Shown one piece after another: positions 10,968-38,070 of a DNA stretch of 47,167 bases. The stretch is from positions 1-47,167 of the forward strand of contig JALCRR010000013.1 in the NCBI GenBank assembly GCA_022652815.1, given 5' to 3'. Under the pieces are notes generated by a model. It ran no database searches. It saw only the letters and a program-made list of their open reading frames with translations, and was not told the origin of the DNA. Numbering within the stretch: position 1 is the first letter of the stretch; every line of letters starts with the position of its first letter. The translations under genes and the position numbers were made by a program. This DNA is from Oscillibacter sp. (GTDB taxonomy: Bacteria > Bacillota > Clostridia > Oscillospirales > Oscillospiraceae).

Positions 10968-11038
10968 AGGGTAGCAATAGGTTGTCCTTTTGGGAGCTTT
11001 TTCCCTGTCGGATATCAAACATAGAAGGGGTTGAGGCA

Positions 11039-12547
11039 ATGGAAGAAATTTTACGCATGGAGCACATCACCAAGCAGTTTGGCAGCGTATACGCCAACCG
11101 GGATATTAATTTGGAGGTCCGGCGCGGCGAAGTACATACCCTCCTGGGCGAGAACGGTGCCGGCAAGAGCACCTTGATGAACGTGCTGTTTGGCCTTTAC
11201 CAGCCCACTGCAGGTCAGATTTATCTGAACGGCAAGCCGGTAAAAATCACCTCTCCGGCCGAGGCAGTGAAGCTCGGCATCGGCATGGTGCACCAGCACT
11301 TCATGTTGGTGGAGGCCATGACGGTTTTTGAGAACATTATCCTGGGCGACAAACGCACCAAGGGTGTTTTTATTGACCGAGACGCTCGCCGCAAAGAGAT
11401 TACGGAGCTTGCGGACCGCTACGGTCTGGAGGTGGAGCTGGACAAGCCCATCACCGAGATTGCCGTGGGTGCGCAGCAGCGCGTGGAAATTTTGAAGGCA
11501 CTGTACCGCGGAGCGGAGCTTTTGGTGCTGGACGAGCCCACCGCAGCCCTAACGGACCTTGAGGTCGAGGGACTGTTTGAGATTATCGAGAAGCTGAAGA
11601 AGGAAAACAAGAGCGTTATCTTCATCAGCCACAAGATGCGCGAGGTGCTGAAGATCTCCGATCGAATTACGGTTCTCCGTGCCGGACAGACGGTCTGCAC
11701 GGTGGAGCGCAGCGAAACCGACGGCGCAAAGCTGGCCAATCTGATGATGGGTCGGGAACTGGCGCCCTCCCATTATGAGAAGATCGAGCAGCCCGGCGAG
11801 CCGGTGATGACCCTTGACCATGTGAGCTATCACAAGGCATCCAAGCACAGCGGACTGAACGATATTTCCCTGTCCATCGGCCGGGGCGAGATCGTGGGAA
11901 TCGCCGGCGTGGACGGAAACGGCCAGAGTCAGCTTGCCCAGATCGTCACCGGCGTCCTAACGCCAGACGAGGGCGAGGCAGATCTGAAAGGCTCCAAGGT
12001 GGCAAAATTTACGCCCAACGGCTTTATTGTGGAAAATGTGGCCCACATTCCGGAGGATCGGAACAAGATGGGGCTCATCGGCAATATGTCGGTGCAGGAC
12101 AACATCGTGCTGAAAAGCACGGAAGAACCCCGCTTTTCCGATGGCCACGGTGCCCATTTGAAGAAAAAAGCTATACACGAATATGCCCTTTCCATGCAGG
12201 AAAAGTACGATATTCGCTGTGAATCGGTGGAGCAGGAGACGAGAAACCTCTCCGGCGGCAATCAACAGAAGGTCATTCTGGCCCGGGAGCTGGAGGGCAA
12301 CCCCGATCTTCTGGTGGCGGTGCATCCCACCCGCGGATTGGACATCGGCGCAACCCGCTTTGTCCACGACTCCATGATTGATGCCCGGGGCAAGGGCTGC
12401 GGTGTGCTGCTGATCTCCGCAGACTTTGACGAGGTGCTGGAAATTTCCGACCGCATCATCGTCATGTTTGAAGGACAGATCATGGGCGTCTATCCCGGCA
12501 AGAATCCTCCCATTGAGGAAATCAGCCTGGCCATGGCCGGCAAGTGA
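11039..12547 (+). CDS. BMP-type nucleoside ABC importer, double ATPase subunit
   Basis: The 502-residue protein holds two fused nucleotide-binding domains, as in Bacillus NupO/YufO and sugar RbsA-like ATPases. Domain 1 has Walker A GENGAGKST and Walker B LVLDEPTAAL with a degenerate signature (VGAQQRVEI). Domain 2 has a degenerate Walker A (GVDGNGQSQ) but a full LSGGNQQK signature and HPTRGLD. This split pattern is normal for the family. The frame is open 19 codons further upstream, but the ATG at 11039 follows a GAGG site and gives the conserved MEEILRMEHITKQFG start. It heads a four-gene operon with two permeases and a lipoprotein. The partner families point to nucleosides or purines as cargo. 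Confidence 0.93.
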   Translation: MEEILRMEHITKQFGSVYANRDINLEVRRGEVHTLLGENGAGKSTLMNVLFGLYQPTAGQIYLNGKPVKITSPAEAVKLGIGMVHQHFMLVEAMTVFENIILGDKRTKGVFIDRDARRKEITELADRYGLEVELDKPITEIAVGAQQRVEILKALYRGAELLVLDEPTAALTDLEVEGLFEIIEKLKKENKSVIFISHKMREVLKISDRITVLRAGQTVCTVERSETDGAKLANLMMGRELAPSHYEKIEQPGEPVMTLDHVSYHKASKHSGLNDISLSIGRGEIVGIAGVDGNGQSQLAQIVTGVLTPDEGEADLKGSKVAKFTPNGFIVENVAHIPEDRNKMGLIGNMSVQDNIVLKSTEEPRFSDGHGAHLKKKAIHEYALSMQEKYDIRCESVEQETRNLSGGNQQKVILARELEGNPDLLVAVHPTRGLDIGATRFVHDSMIDARGKGCGVLLISADFDEVLEISDRIIVMFEGQIMGVYPGKNPPIEEISLAMAGK

Positions 12548-12558
12548 GGAGGAACGAC

Positions 12559-13632
12559 ATGAAACTCAAAAAGACTCTGATGAGCGTTCTGGTGCCGCTG
12601 GCCTCCGTCATTCTGGCCTTTGTCATCGGCGCCATCATCATCGCCGCTCTGGGCGGAAGCCCCGTGCAGGCGGTCGCGTATCTGTTTCAAGGCGCCTTTG
12701 GCACCCCCAACAACTTTGCTTCCACACTGGTGAAGGCAACCCCACTGATTTTTACAGGCCTTTGCGCCTGCTTCGCATACCGTTGCGGCGTGTTCAACCT
12801 GGGCGGCGAGGGCCAGTTCATTATGGGCTCCATCGCCACCTGCTGGGTGGCCACCACCTGGGGAATTGAAGGCCCAGGCGCCATGGTTTTGTGCCTGCTG
12901 TGCGGCATCATCGCCGGCGGTATCTGGGGCGCTATTCCCGGTATTCTAAAAATTACCCGGGGACTGAACGAAATGATCGTGTCCATTATGCTCAACTACG
13001 TGGCAACGCTGTTTATGGGACTGCTCTACACCAGCGTCCTGCGAGACGGCAATGTGCCCCAGACGGCTGCCGTTCCCGACGCGACTCAACTCCAGCGCAT
13101 CGTCCCGTCACTCCGCGTGACCTGGGGCATCGTCATTGCGCTGGCTGTTGCGGCGGTGGTGCAGTATTTCCTGTTCAGCACCTCCAAGGGCTTCCAGCTG
13201 CGGGCAGTGGGCCTTAATATGACCGCCTCCCGGTTCAACGGCTTTTCCGTGAAGAAATACATCCTCTTCAGCTTTGTCGTTTCCGGCGCGATTGCCGGCC
13301 TGGGCGGCAGCGTGGAGCTGCTGGGTACCCAGTACCGCCTAATCAGCGGCTACGCCGTGGGCTACGGCTTTGACGGCGTCGCCATGGCGCTGATTGCCCA
13401 GCTCAACCCCGTGGCCACGGTGATTGTGGCCTACTTCTTCGCGGTGCTCCGTACCGGCGCCAACACCATGCAGGCCGGCACTGGCGTACCCACCTCCGTG
13501 ATCGACATTATTCAGGCGCTGGTCATCGTTCTGGCTGTGGCAGGCTTTGCACTGGTGAAGCTGCCCCAGATCCGACAGTGGCTTGCCGGCCGCGGCGGAA
13601 AGAAAACCGCAGAGAAAAAGGAGGAGAAGTAA
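12559..13632 (+). CDS. BMP-type nucleoside ABC importer, permease 1 (NupP-like)
   Basis: The 357-residue integral membrane protein is of the branched-chain-amino-acid/ribose permease superfamily, with eight to ten hydrophobic helices. It contains the family segments FNLGGEGQFIMGS and GLNEMIVSIMLNYVA, and FDGVAMALIAQLNPVA near the end. AGGAGG lies six bases before the ATG at 12559; a GTG overlapping the previous stop is in frame but too close to that site. The C-terminus is short and Lys-rich. It should form a heterodimer with the next gene product. Confidence 0.92.
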   Translation: MKLKKTLMSVLVPLASVILAFVIGAIIIAALGGSPVQAVAYLFQGAFGTPNNFASTLVKATPLIFTGLCACFAYRCGVFNLGGEGQFIMGSIATCWVATTWGIEGPGAMVLCLLCGIIAGGIWGAIPGILKITRGLNEMIVSIMLNYVATLFMGLLYTSVLRDGNVPQTAAVPDATQLQRIVPSLRVTWGIVIALAVAAVVQYFLFSTSKGFQLRAVGLNMTASRFNGFSVKKYILFSFVVSGAIAGLGGSVELLGTQYRLISGYAVGYGFDGVAMALIAQLNPVATVIVAYFFAVLRTGANTMQAGTGVPTSVIDIIQALVIVLAVAGFALVKLPQIRQWLAGRGGKKTAEKKEEK

Positions 13633-13633
13633 C

Positions 13634-14554
13634 ATGGATATCGGTGAACTGATCCTCTCTACCGTCCGCATGGCCACCCCCATTCTTCTGGTGGCACTGG
13701 CGGAGCTGTACTCCGAGCGGGCAGGCCTTGTCAACATCGGACTGGACGGCATCATGTCCTTCGGCGCTTTGGCGGGCTTTATGGTCTGCTTCATTACCGG
13801 CAGCCCGTTCCTCGGAATCCTGGCCGGTGCGATGGGCGGCATTCTCATCAACATGATCTATGCCTACTGCACCATTTCCCTGTGCGCCGAGCAGATCGTT
13901 TACGGCATGGCCATCAACATCTTTGCCCCTGCCGTGGCGTCGTTTATCTACCGTATTTACTTCGGCGTCAGCTCCACACTGGCGCAGGACACCCTAATGA
14001 AATCCATCGCCATCCCGTATCTCAAGGATATCCCCTTCCTGGGCAAGCTGCTCTTCGACCAGACGCCCATGGTATACTTTGCCTATCTGATGGTGGTCTT
14101 TACCGCGATCTTCTTCAATAAAACGAAGAAGGGCCTAAATTATAAGGCCGTGGGCGAATATCCAAAGGCGGCTGAGACGCTGGGCATCAACGTCATCCGC
14201 CAGAAGTATGTTGCCTGCATGATCTGCGGCGCACTGGCCGGTATCGGCGGCGCGTACTTAACCACCTGCTATGTCAACACCTATTCCGACGGCGTAGTGG
14301 CTGGACGCGGCTTCATTGCCCTGTCTGCCGTCATTTTCGGACGGTGGAGCTCCGGCGGCGTACTGCTGGCCTGTCTGCTGTTCGGCTTCTGTGACGCTTT
14401 GCAGCTGCGCCTCCAGATTATGAACACCTCCACGCCCTATCAGCTGTTCCAGATGATTCCGTATGTCTGCACGCTGGTGGCGCTGGCTGCGTTCGGCATT
14501 AAGAAGGCCGGCCCGAAGGCCAACGGCAAGCCCTATATGCGCGAGGAGCGCTGA
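13634..14554 (+). CDS. BMP-type nucleoside ABC importer, permease 2 (NupQ-like)
   Basis: The 306-residue permease starts two bases after the previous stop, with GGAGGAG upstream. It has the family pattern LVALAELYSERAGLVNIGLDGIMSFGALAGF near the N-terminus and GIGGAYLTTCYVNTYSDGVVAGRGFIALSAVIFGRW further on. Eight or so helices are visible. An in-frame open stretch reaching 51 bases into permease 1 is not used, judging by the ribosome site. Confidence 0.92.
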   Translation: MDIGELILSTVRMATPILLVALAELYSERAGLVNIGLDGIMSFGALAGFMVCFITGSPFLGILAGAMGGILINMIYAYCTISLCAEQIVYGMAINIFAPAVASFIYRIYFGVSSTLAQDTLMKSIAIPYLKDIPFLGKLLFDQTPMVYFAYLMVVFTAIFFNKTKKGLNYKAVGEYPKAAETLGINVIRQKYVACMICGALAGIGGAYLTTCYVNTYSDGVVAGRGFIALSAVIFGRWSSGGVLLACLLFGFCDALQLRLQIMNTSTPYQLFQMIPYVCTLVALAAFGIKKAGPKANGKPYMREER

Positions 14555-14625
14555 TTGATCGGTCATAAGGCGCAAGCCTTTGTGATATTGCTCTTGGAAA
14601 AAATGAAGTATGGAGGAATTTGAAA

Positions 14626-15651
14626 ATGAAGAAAGTCTTTGCACTCGTTCTCACCCTGGCCATGGCACTGTCCCTGGCCGCCTGCGGCGCAGCCAGCAAG
14701 CCCGCCGCATCTGCATCTGGCAGCGCAGCTGCTTCCGGCTCTGCCGCTGCATCCGGCTACAAGGTCGCCATGGTCTGCGACTCCAGTATTTCCGACGGCG
14801 GCTGGGGTGCTGCCTGCTACAACGCCATGGTGGATGCCGCTGCCGATCTGGGCTGGGAAACCGCCTATTCCGACTCCGTTGCACAGTCTGACTATGCAAG
14901 CTCCATCACCAGCTACTGCGACCTGGGCTACAACATGATCTTTCTGCCCGGCAACCAGTACTCCGATGCAACCGTGCAGGTTGCCAAGGACTATCCCGAC
15001 ATCTGCTTCGCCGTTTTGAACGGCGCTGAGGATCTGCCCACCGACAACATCACCTCCATTCTGCCCAACGCAGACGAGATCGGCTACATGGCCGGCGCTC
15101 TGGCTGGCCTGATGACCAAGACCAACGTCCTGGGCTTCATCGGCGGCATGGAAATCGACACCACCAAGGCAAAGCTGGCCGGCTACGAGGCCGCTGCCAA
15201 GGCTGTCAATCCCGACATCACGGTGCTCTCCGCCTATGCAGGCTCCTTCGATGACACTGCCAAGGGCATGGAGCTGGCCAACGGCATGCTCTCCAAGAAC
15301 GCTGACGTGTTCTTCGGCGATGCCTCCGCAGTTGACTCCGGCGCCCGTCAGGCAATCGACACCGCCAACGGTGACGGCGAAATTGGCATCTACGATATCG
15401 GCCAGCCTGCCGATCTGCTGGGCCAGAATCCCTGCGTCATCTGCTCTGTTGTCACGGACAACGCCGGCATGCTGAAGCTGGCTATGCAGGATGCCCAGGC
15501 AGGCTCCTTCGGCAACAAGACCATCTATGGCTCCTTCGAGAACGGCTGCCTGAGCGTCGGCGCCTTCAACGATGAGCTGGTCTCCGCTGACATCCAGAGC
15601 GCTTACATGGACTTCATCGATCAGATGGCCGCAGGCACGTTCCCCGGCTAA
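14626..15651 (+). CDS. BMP family substrate-binding lipoprotein (nucleoside importer)
   Basis: The 341-residue secreted lipoprotein has a signal peptide with lipobox LAAC at residues 17-20, so it is anchored by Cys20. An Ala/Ser linker of about 20 residues follows, then a PnrA/Med-like periplasmic-binding fold (DGGWGAACYNAM, GFIGGMEIDTTKAKLAGYEAA, DVFFGDASAVDSGAR). BMP proteins bind purine or pyrimidine nucleosides outside the membrane and hand them to the permeases. GGAGG sits nine bases before the ATG at 14626; an in-frame TTG six bases earlier is too close to it. Codon use is strongly biased, as expected for the most abundant transporter subunit. The terminator at 15675-15711 closes the operon. 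Confidence 0.94.
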   Translation: MKKVFALVLTLAMALSLAACGAASKPAASASGSAAASGSAAASGYKVAMVCDSSISDGGWGAACYNAMVDAAADLGWETAYSDSVAQSDYASSITSYCDLGYNMIFLPGNQYSDATVQVAKDYPDICFAVLNGAEDLPTDNITSILPNADEIGYMAGALAGLMTKTNVLGFIGGMEIDTTKAKLAGYEAAAKAVNPDITVLSAYAGSFDDTAKGMELANGMLSKNADVFFGDASAVDSGARQAIDTANGDGEIGIYDIGQPADLLGQNPCVICSVVTDNAGMLKLAMQDAQAGSFGNKTIYGSFENGCLSVGAFNDELVSADIQSAYMDFIDQMAAGTFPG

Positions 15652-15727: not shown

Positions 15728-17005
15728 TCAGCGGTTTTTCGCGTTGTAAACCTTGCGACCCTCGCTCCAGACGGCGCGGATGGCATCCGGCTGGCGGACG
15801 TAGACGCACCGCTCAAACCGCTCCTGTACGGTTAAGGGACGGGTTGAGGGGACCAGCGCACTGTCGTCCAGCACCATCGCGTGAAGGGCATCGCCCTTGG
15901 CGAAGCCCGCTCCGGCGCCAAAGAAATTCGCGCCTGCGGTCGTGCCCAGATACCAGCCCTCGGCCACGGTCAAAAAGTCTGTGCGCCAGTTGTCCATGAT
16001 CCGCCGATCCTTGGAGGCCTTGATGGCATCCGCCACGGCGTCGAACATGTGGATGGAGCAGCCGCCGGCTACATCGCTGCCGAGAGCCACCTTCAGCCCC
16101 TCATTTAGCATGACCCGCACCGGCGCGGTGCCAGAGCAGATGGCGTTGTTGGAGTTGGCGCAGTGGGCAACAGTGACGCCGGCATCTTTCATGGCCTTGC
16201 GCTCCCGCGCGTCAGAGTGGACGCAGTGAGCCATAATGGTGCGGTCATTCCACAGCCCGTATTCCGCGTAAGTCTCCCAGTATTGCTTGCATTCCGGGTG
16301 CAGCTCCCGTACCCACTCGATTTCCCGATGGTTTTCCGAAAGGTGGGACTGAACGGGAAGGTGCCGCTCCTGGGCAAGTTTGCCCAGAAACGCCATCAGC
16401 TCGTTGGTGCAGGACGGGGTGAATCGGGGCGTCAGAATGGGCTTGATGTGCGGAAAGTCTTGACATTCCTCCAGCCAGCGCAAGGTCTCCCGCTGGGATT
16501 CTTCGGTGGTTTCCTGCAAATTAGATGCGCCGTTGCGGTCCATGTTGACCTTGCCCACATAGCCCACGATGCCCGCCTTTTCCAGCTCCTCCATCAAAAT
16601 GAGCGTCGCCTCCCGGTGCAAAGAGGAGAACAACGACACCCGGGTGGTGCCGTTTGCCACCAGCTCATGGGCAAGATGGCGGTAGACCGTCCGCGCGTAG
16701 TCAGCGTCAGTGAACCGTGCCTCCGTGGGGAACGCATACTCGTTCAGCCAGTCCAGCAGCGGCAGATCCATGCCCATGCCCATCATGGCGTACTGCGGGG
16801 CGTGCATGTGAAGATCGGCAAAGGACTGAAGAATGAGGCAATCGCCCCAGTCCTCCACAGGGACGGCGGCATAGCGCTCCGGCAGCTGGGAGAAAACGCC
16901 GATGATGATGCCGTCCTCGGCGATGAGATAGCCGTATTCGGTGATGTCCAGCTTTCCGCATTCCGGAGCCGAAACGATATTCCCTTTCAAGATTGTGACT
17001 GCCAT
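15728..17005 (-). CDS. guaD: Guanine deaminase
   Basis: GuaD hydrolyses guanine to xanthine and ammonia. The 425-residue amidohydrolase carries the zinc site as DLHMHAPQY near the N-terminus, QSHLSE and AHCVH in the middle, and LGSDVAGG late. The guanine-deaminase marks LPLLDWLNEYAFPTEARF and KVNMDRN separate it from other amidohydrolases. The open frame extends 27 codons upstream into leader sequence, but the ATG at 17005 has GAGGTG eight bases before it and starts the conserved MAVTILKG. It has its own promoter (17201-17229) and a guanine riboswitch with a terminator in the leader. The nucleoside importer converges on it from the other side, which fits purine catabolism. Confidence 0.95.
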   Translation of the reverse strand: MAVTILKGNIVSAPECGKLDITEYGYLIAEDGIIIGVFSQLPERYAAVPVEDWGDCLILQSFADLHMHAPQYAMMGMGMDLPLLDWLNEYAFPTEARFTDADYARTVYRHLAHELVANGTTRVSLFSSLHREATLILMEELEKAGIVGYVGKVNMDRNGASNLQETTEESQRETLRWLEECQDFPHIKPILTPRFTPSCTNELMAFLGKLAQERHLPVQSHLSENHREIEWVRELHPECKQYWETYAEYGLWNDRTIMAHCVHSDARERKAMKDAGVTVAHCANSNNAICSGTAPVRVMLNEGLKVALGSDVAGGCSIHMFDAVADAIKASKDRRIMDNWRTDFLTVAEGWYLGTTAGANFFGAGAGFAKGDALHAMVLDDSALVPSTRPLTVQERFERCVYVRQPDAIRAVWSEGRKVYNAKNR

Positions 17006-17035
17006 AAAAAAACACCTCACATAAAATCGGTAAAA

Positions 17036-17084
17036 CAAAACGAGTGCCCGTCTGGATGCACGAATTGCGTCCGGACAGACACTC
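17036..17084 (-). terminator. Riboswitch-controlled terminator in the guaD leader
   Basis: On the minus strand the arms 17066-17084 and 17042-17060 pair at 17 of 19 positions, counting three G-U pairs, around an ATTCG loop. GTTTTGTTTTA follows. The first four bases of the 5' arm (GAGT) are also the 3' end of riboswitch stem P1, so ligand binding and a complete terminator exclude each other. Confidence 0.8.
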
Positions 17085-17174
17085 ATAGTCAGACCTTAGG
17101 CGGTCATGTAGAAACTTCCGCACCGTTTTCCTCCCCCGAACAGGCAGGGCGAGCCTCAGCGGAATTATATGAGT
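17081..17174 (-). promoter_or_regulatory. Guanine (purine-class) riboswitch aptamer with an extra hairpin in loop L2
   Basis: On the minus strand the aptamer reads P1 ACTCATA (17168-17174) with TATGAGT (17081-17087), J1/2 TAA, P2 TTCCGC with GCGGAA, J2/3 GTTTCTAC, a P3 hairpin with a CCTAA-containing loop, then GACTAT before the P1 3' strand. The uridines of J2/3 and the C of GACTAT (the position that pairs with guanine; U in adenine types) are all present. What is odd is L2. Instead of 7-8 bases it has 37 (17122-17158), able to form a CTCGCCC/GGGGGAG stem. A GG still sits next to the P2 3' strand and could kiss CC in L3. I infer that it senses guanine. Confidence 0.85.
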
Positions 17175-17200: not shown

Positions 17201-17229
17201 AAGATACCATATTTGAAACGGGAAATCAA
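17201..17229 (-). promoter_or_regulatory. Sigma-A promoter of guaD
   Basis: On the minus strand TTGATT (17224-17229) is followed after 17 bases by TATCTT (17201-17206). Transcription would start about 20 bases before the riboswitch, so guaD is expressed separately from thiI-cinA. Confidence 0.8.
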
Positions 17230-37786: not shown

Positions 37787-37822
37787 AAAAAACGCCCCTG
37801 TGCAGTGTTCTGCACAAGGGCG
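37787..37822 (-). terminator. T-box terminator hairpin
   Basis: A 13-bp stem without mismatches, including one G-U pair, lies between 37810-37822 and 37793-37805 with a four-base loop. On the minus strand it is followed by TTTTTT. It competes with the antiterminator that holds the T-box bulge. Confidence 0.95.
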
Positions 37823-38070
37823 AATATGATTCGCGGTACCACCTTGCTTTACAGACATCTCACAATGCCTGTCTCTTAAACTGCGGCGCCAAAGGCACTG
37901 CACAGCCGAACGCTTTAACGGGCGCACCCGTCGCCGACTTGCACAACTGTGTTTGCCGACGCCGCTCCGAGGCCATGTTCCGTCTGGCGTACCCTGCCCG
38001 CTTTCACCATCCGCGGACTCTCTGCAAAGGTCGATTCAGACGTACTCTTCTCATCATCGCGTTTAAACTG
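37823..38070 (-). promoter_or_regulatory. T-box riboswitch (uncharged-tRNA sensor), specifier best read as AUG (Met)
   Basis: On the minus strand the T-box AGGTGGTACCGCG lies at 37832-37844. Upstream come stem I elements in order: a GATGA K-turn, the AGTA bulge, distal AGAGAG and GGTGAAAG segments, and on the return strand GAACATGGCCTCGGAGC. The specifier loop lies between the GAG/CTC and CGTCTG/CAGACG helices. The codon ATG at 37974-37976 followed by a purine fits the usual spacing better than GGC or GCC. The tRNA-end contact is TGGT, which needs discriminator A, true for tRNA-Met and excluding tRNA-Gly. The T-box is certain; the Met reading is inference. Confidence 0.93.

Follow-up and report, generated by a model that had tools for sequence, protein, structure and literature searches.

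What has become of a guanine-type purine riboswitch whose loop L2 has grown to 37 nt, and does it still control the guanine deaminase gene (guaD) that follows it? We address this for a 47,167 nt stretch of an Oscillibacter genome, hereafter the window, which belongs to the only assembly seen of its species, a draft of 2.25 Mb in 69 contigs that is 96.5% complete. Our preferred reading, to which we give a probability of roughly 0.6, is that the leader is a guanine-sensing transcription riboswitch turning guaD on, and that the outgrowth of L2 is tolerated by an aptamer that still folds.

The aptamer and its gene

The features of the leader and gene, all on the minus strand, are as follows.

17201..17229, minus strand: possible promoter TTGATT, 17 nt, TATCTT (by eye; 8/12 bases agree with the consensus, and the promoter scan, whose threshold is higher, does not list it)
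17174-17081, minus strand: purine riboswitch aptamer (RF00167), 75 nt upstream of the guanine deaminase gene
17168..17174, minus strand: P1 5' strand ACTCATA, pairing with 17087-17081 (sequence, RF00167, fold)
17165..17167, minus strand: J1/2 TAA, i.e. U22, A23, A24 (sequence, RF00167)
17159..17164, minus strand: P2 5' strand TTCCGC (sequence, RF00167, comparison)
17122..17158, minus strand: enlarged L2, 37 nt including a U.U mismatch (17158 with 17122) beside P2, compared with 8-12 nt in 48/51 guaD leaders
17131..17156, minus strand: 26 nt extra to relatives and hairpin-capable (compare L2 such as TGGAAACGGT in genome G014); limits uncertain by 1-2 bases
17123..17124, minus strand: GG ending L2 (G37, G38), taken as one side of the proposed kiss; GG in 51/51 leaders
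17116..17121, minus strand: P2 3' strand GCGGAA (sequence, RF00167, comparison)
17108..17115, minus strand: J2/3 GTTTCTAC, containing U47 and U51 (sequence, RF00167)
17090..17107, minus strand: P3 with L3 GCCTAA (sequence, RF00167, fold, comparison)
17100-17099, minus strand: CC in L3, proposed other half of the kiss; CC in 51/51 leaders
17088..17089, minus strand: J3/1 AC, i.e. A73 and the guanine-specifying C74 (sequence, RF00167)
17081..17087, minus strand: P1 3' strand TATGAGT, also used by the terminator (sequence, fold)
17032..17086, minus strand: terminator, stem 17086-17074 with 17052-17040, then GTTTTGTTTT (fold; from 17084 on, -26.7 kcal/mol)
17013..17018, minus strand: ribosome-binding site GAGGTG (read from sequence)
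15728..17005, minus strand: guaD, guanine deaminase, 425 aa (P0001; TIGR02967 best; 2i9u; Pfam Amidohydro_1)

A preliminary description of this DNA had recognised the core of a purine aptamer, and P1, J1/2, P2, J2/3 and J3/1 are all present as it gave them. It had proposed a check with the Rfam purine covariance model, and RF00167 indeed matches 17192-17066 on the minus strand at 39.5 bits in cmscan, where the gathering cut-off is 37, with an E of 0.0046 over the entire window and 33 nt of L2 left unaligned to the model. This is the sole RF00167 match in the genome, and its score is the lowest among the 27 places listed in an RF00167 search of 60 relatives. With a custom covariance model, trained on 46 rows that include the window beside its relatives, the score is 67.9 bits (E 2.6e-13 for the window's own genome). 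By the RF00167 match the window aptamer is a real purine riboswitch.

Its helices P1, P2 and P3 are supported by comparison of 46 distinct aptamers of this type. All six P2 pairs hold in 46/46, three of them changed on both sides, and the three-helix model as a whole has 97.8% paired cells and two-sided changes in 8/19 pairs, whereas slid controls reach a maximum of 54.1% and 4 pairs, and 500 shuffles have a mean of 4.7 two-sided pairs with none reaching 8. One of the five measures, the number of additional kinds of pair, does not stand out clearly from shuffles (16 against a shuffle value of 14.5, with 84/500 shuffles reaching 16), and P1 is nearly invariant and so adds little comparative support. 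The minimum-energy fold of the aptamer alone contains P1, P2, P3 and a hairpin in L2, and despite that hairpin the window's six P1 and six P2 pairs have predicted probabilities of 0.65 to 1.0; the fold energy of this stretch alone is no better than that of shuffles (z -0.05).

P3 had been described with a bulged U and a six-base loop. The loop stands, while the bulge is one of two readings of the P3 base, the alternative being two mismatches (A.G, U.U); when six pairs are read, the window is the sole row of 46 in which both basal pairs fail. The outermost of these pairs fails in 5/46 rows, comprising all three aptamers with an L2 insert (the window, G074 and G090) and 2 of the 43 others, and the P3 base and L2 might vary together, a pattern spotted after the fact among related rows that are not independent.

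The gene downstream had been named guanine deaminase, and it is so by best match: the aptamer ends 75 nt before 17005, and the best NCBIfam family of the product is TIGR02967 (313.5 bits, below the cut-off of 375.4, compared with 87.2 bits for the 8-oxoguanine deaminase family). Its nearest solved structure is 2i9u, a cytosine/guanine deaminase related protein (E 7.2e-100). A second guaD-like gene of the same genome (G000:C30:23298-24551, locus L111; 40% identity) has no aptamer upstream. Tail to tail with guaD, ABC transporter genes for an ATPase, two permeases and a PnrA-like Bmp binding protein occupy 10982-15651 on the plus strand; the transporter is probably for nucleosides, and with guaD it perhaps forms a cluster for purine uptake and breakdown. 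Elsewhere in the window, a T-box leader at 37813-38066 on the minus strand (125.1 bits) overlaps the start of ORF 37927-36317, which resembles an amino-acid sodium symporter and is followed by the homocysteine methyltransferase-like ORF 36320-35358 (names assigned by eye).

The enlarged loop in the genus and beyond

Searching 86 genomes of the genus with the guaD protein brought up 66 guaD-like places, spread over 63 genomes; 51 of these places have a readable aptamer upstream, in one it is interrupted by a run of N (G079), and 14 show none, the custom model finding no match at these either. That model added one guaD leader with an ordinary L2 (G094) and, in G010, one aptamer upstream of an xpt-like gene (by eye). 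The L2 and L3 loops of purine riboswitches are each about 7 nt. Counted between the six-pair P2 strands of the 51 leaders, L2 is 8 nt in 10, 9 nt in 15, 10 nt in 7, 11 nt in 12 and 12 nt in 4, the remaining three being long, with 20 nt (G090), 29 nt (G074) and 37 nt (the window). The 37 bases given in the preliminary description are thus upheld if the U.U mismatch is included, the loop proper being 35 nt. Across the 51 leaders this last P2 pair is U.C in 39, U.U in 9, A.C in 2 and the pairable A.U in 1, and J2/3 is GTTTCTAC in 39 and GTCTCTAC in 12.

L2 starts with TG in 47/51 leaders, including all three long ones, which diverge afterwards, and the extra sequence therefore seems to have entered at much the same point in the 5' part of L2, leaving the 3' end untouched. 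The extra sequences of G074 and G090 are unlike that of the window and occupy the same site, right after the 5' UG of L2; since two other species carry different inserts at this point, it appears to be one that accepts insertions. Without its 26 nt the window's loop would be an 11 nt loop resembling that of G014; in G025, whose guaD is the closest to the window's (77% identity), L2 has the usual size at 9 nt. Homologous leaders with the same insertion, which the preliminary description had advised seeking, did not emerge: the insertion is not conserved and 48/51 leaders lack one, although two others carry inserts of their own. Enlargement of a different loop was seen at L094 and L096 (genomes G034 and G102), where L3 is GCCGTTTGAAAA.

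The loop had also been credited with a stem of its own, CTCGCCC/GGGGGAG. It can indeed fold, but the predicted stem consists of CUC/GAG and CCCUG/CGGGG with one bulged G (8 pairs, -10.6 kcal/mol), and 619 of 1000 shuffles of the loop were as good (mean -11.5 kcal/mol). The hairpins of G074 and G090 are likewise within chance (390/1000 and 413/1000 shuffles as good), and no covariation was found for the L2 hairpin. Shuffled loops being equally stable in all three species, the hairpin finds no support as a selected structure, and because shuffles of the same loop fold as well, we regard it as plausible rather than demonstrated.

The three inserts are unlike in sequence, which suggests separate insertion events. 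In a quick tree of guaD proteins (55 rows) the three bearers require three changes; a tree holding them together is not rejected (p 0.38), and one joining the window and G090, missed by the free search, is 4 log units better than the free tree (p 0.56). Two or three events may be involved, and a single one is also compatible with the tree.

Beyond the genus, the custom model found 57 places in 56 of 400 genomes of the family, 9 of these places lying in the genus, and we read 24 of the 48 non-genus matches (the 21 best-scoring with loci and three weak-scoring). A guaD relative (60-71% identity) adjoins the aptamer in 20 of the 21 best-scoring loci, L171 being the one without, so that by this count the guaD leader type extends to other genera of the family; no L2 insert was seen in these 21, and no guaD match at the three weak-scoring loci (G414, G380, G323). 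Over the 86 genus and 400 family genomes, searches with this model, run with stricter filters and a training set that included the three insert bearers, yielded a long L2 beyond the window only in G074 and G090. The 90 nt match in G414 (L187), considered as a further insert, has mainly an enlarged L3 of approximately 21 nt with L2 a few bases longer than usual (by eye). RF00167, searched over 60 relatives and 400 family genomes in runs that lose weak matches, listed no match longer than 107 nt besides the window. A pattern search for L2 inserts (exact ATATAA/GTTTCTAC/CTATG) in overlapping sets of 391 class and 394 order genomes gave 38 and 6 places, two of them common to both; 34 loci were read, 8 of the 38 having none. 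Among these 34 a strict test accepted 14 aptamers; L2 is 37 nt in the window and 7-9 nt in the other 13, although the pattern would miss G074 and G090 (TATAG) and some of the 20 failing loci resemble ordinary aptamers.

A second set of purine aptamers in the genus (L003, L004, L009, L010, L012) was seen by eye before look-alike amidohydrolase genes. The one gene of this set that was tested, at L010, scores as an 8-oxoguanine deaminase above the NCBIfam cut-off (572 against 532 bits), and the joining regions of the aptamers look guanine-I-like; their ligand may be guanine or 8-oxoguanine. In the tails of L003 and L009 a P1 strand is seemingly common to a terminator (by eye).

The kiss, the pocket and the ligand

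The kiss between L2 and L3 is a well-known tertiary contact of purine riboswitches, highly conserved and critical for preorganization according to an excerpt of PMC3764141. The kiss bases given there are U34, G37 and G38 with C60, C61 and A65, with G37 and G38 pairing with C61 and C60 in solved structures and U34 and A33 also taking part in crystal structures. In all 51 leaders L2 ends in GG followed by a pyrimidine and L3 opens with GCC; the GG and CC correspond to G37/G38 and C61/C60, which allows both central kiss pairs in each leader. The reduced GG/CC kiss suggested in the preliminary description is therefore supported as a possibility, and we infer that it forms in the window, where A33 and U34 have no fixed counterpart and L2 is far outside a length of about 7 nt while GG and CC are present.

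The window also keeps the ligand-contacting bases U22, U51 and C74 (listed as such in an excerpt of PMC9295807), in keeping with the guanine type named in the preliminary description, and C74 is found in 51/51 leaders. At position 73, 36 leaders have G, 12 have U and only 3, one of them the window, have the A of the Rfam consensus; because most relatives have G or U where the window has A, their pockets may not be strictly comparable. Some guaD leaders have one extra base in J3/1. Guanine aptamer variants that sense xanthine, 2'-deoxyguanosine and 8-oxoguanine have been described (PMC9295807, excerpt). The marks of xanthine-II (U51G and a two-nucleotide J2-3 insertion) are absent from the window, which retains U51 and a J2/3 without insertion, and those of guanine-II (a one-nucleotide J2-3 insertion and a J3-1 insertion) do not fit it either, J2/3 being without insertion and J3/1 being AC, or GAC in the bulged reading of the P3 base. 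An altered ligand, which had been raised as a possibility, is thus not supported, because the bases that contact the ligand (PMC9295807, excerpt) are all kept; C74 and the gene together point to guanine.

Downstream of the aptamer lies a terminator, absent from the preliminary description, that shares the P1 3' strand. Its strand 17086-17074 takes in most of the P1 3' strand, and by sequence and predicted fold it is mutually exclusive with aptamer P1. The leader including the terminator folds better than shuffles (z -2.45); a simple terminator scan listed none at 17032..17086. Searching for the best place, a downstream partner of the P1 3' strand with at least 9/10 pairs exists in 50/51 leaders compared with 1134/5100 shuffled tails, and with the added demand of at least 6 T in the next 11 positions the figures are 49/51 and 214/5100. 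In full-length folds the P1 3' strand goes to the terminator in 44/51 leaders, the window included, and part of P1 is kept in 7/51 (an earlier run, in which the T-run was placed too early in at least 5 leaders, gave 40/51). One position of the lower stem is A-T in 29, G-T in 12 and G-C in 10 leaders, and three others show T-G, T-A and C-G, with two non-pairs over the eight positions tallied, so that changes in this stem appear mostly to preserve pairing.

Since only one of P1 and the terminator can be complete at a time, a bound ligand should promote transcription, and the guaD leader is most likely a guanine-ON switch, a direction that we infer from sequence and predicted fold. When guanine is absent, the P1 3' strand (ATGAGTG) would become the lower part of the terminator and transcription would stop before guaD. 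Bound guanine would hold P1 closed, and the terminator would lose its base, with the U-run shifted away from what remains of the stem; guaD would then be read and guanine deaminated to xanthine. Such control fits guaD because the enzyme removes guanine. The 26 nt would be an extension, probably folded as a small hairpin, in the 5' part of L2 between the loop's first bases and the kiss stretch, and the GG beside P2 would still pair with the CC of L3, allowing the aptamer to fold.

Competing explanations and known systems

It is rather unlikely that the aptamer has been disrupted or impaired by its outgrowth, leaving it without an L2-L3 kiss and with low guanine affinity, and guaD mostly off or at a fixed level. 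The importance attached to the kiss (PMC3764141, excerpt), the failure of both basal P3 pairs in the window alone of 46 rows (in the six-pair reading) and the low Rfam score would all agree with such decay; however P1, P2, the joining regions, GG, CC, the terminator and the guaD frame are intact, and three species retain inserts together with intact pockets. A gain of function seems to us less probable again, be it a second input (for example a protein or a small molecule) or a hairpin at which the polymerase pauses and so gains time before the terminator forms. The outgrowth is GC-rich, three species share its position within L2, and pausing is known to guide the folding of transcription riboswitches (PMC5459577, excerpt), but the three inserts vary in size and have no evident common sequence, their stability does not exceed that of shuffles, and G025, the closest relative by guaD, does without one.

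We consider a switch of ligand, to 8-oxoguanine, xanthine or a nucleoside, improbable; the L2 enlargement would then be a side effect. The existence of variants with three such ligands (PMC9295807, excerpt) and the G or U at position 73 in 48/51 guaD leaders of the genus give the idea some footing, whereas A73, C74 and U51 are all found in the window, its J2/3 has no insertion, and its gene matches guanine deaminase far better than 8-oxoguanine deaminase. An artefact of assembly or binning in a single draft genome is very improbable: although just this one assembly of the species was seen, the insert lies inside a 47 kb contig, the bases flanking it on both sides resemble those of relatives, and two other genomes have inserts at the same place. 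The window's aptamer is thus, as judged from its sequence and relatives, a real and rare structural variant of a known riboswitch, and likely a functional guanine aptamer that tolerates its outgrowth rather than a new ligand class. A broader conjecture, doubtful but deserving some weight, is that the family's guaD leaders form a distinct guanine aptamer subclass (G/U73, U.Y atop P2, a G-capped short L3 and a GG/CC kiss), in which the smaller kiss leaves the 5' half of L2 free to grow and hairpins have been grafted there in a few species, possibly with a shifted ligand or a second input. If this were true, the grafted L2 hairpins would be natural counterparts of engineered loop insertions.

Among the matches listed for the open-licence literature, as far as their excerpts extend, there was neither a natural L2 insertion nor a guanine-type riboswitch of guanine deaminase genes. 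Three aspects give the tolerated outgrowth wider meaning: an L2 of 8-37 nt with GG and CC constant in 51/51 leaders points to the essential part of the kiss, the 5' side of L2 emerges as a site at which insertions are compatible with the fold and which could also serve in building sensors, and the proposed guanine-ON switch would act on a guanine-degrading enzyme.

In the pbuE adenine riboswitch, also an ON switch, the terminator takes the P1 3' strand and ligand binding prevents termination; the window's terminator architecture is alike, although the adenine aptamer has U74 where the window has C74. The 8-oxoguanine riboswitch, associated with 8-oxoguanine deaminase, similarly guards a purine deaminase gene in the ON direction, whereas the window's gene encodes a guanine deaminase and its pocket is that of guanine-I. 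Some members of xanthine-I (NMT1) lie near genes like guanine and 8-hydroxyguanine deaminases (PMC7373994, excerpt), but their RNA is unrelated to the window's, with a structure entirely different from the three-stem junction (PMC9295807, excerpt). Guanine-II, according to the same excerpt, shares the ligand proposed for the window and the predicted ON direction, yet has J2-3 and J3-1 insertions and mostly precedes phosphoribosyltransferase genes, while the window has no J2-3 insertion and precedes guaD. With the guanine-I aptamer (RF00167) the window has in common the three-way junction, the J1/2 and J2/3 sequences, U22, U51 and C74, the GG of L2 and the CC of L3, and it differs in its 37 nt L2 (against approximately 7), in the U.U that replaces the last P2 pair and in its six-base L3. 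It also differs in its predicted ON response, guanine riboswitches commonly reducing expression (PMC9295807, excerpt); such a response to guanine is not new in itself, as the same source predicts it for guanine-II.
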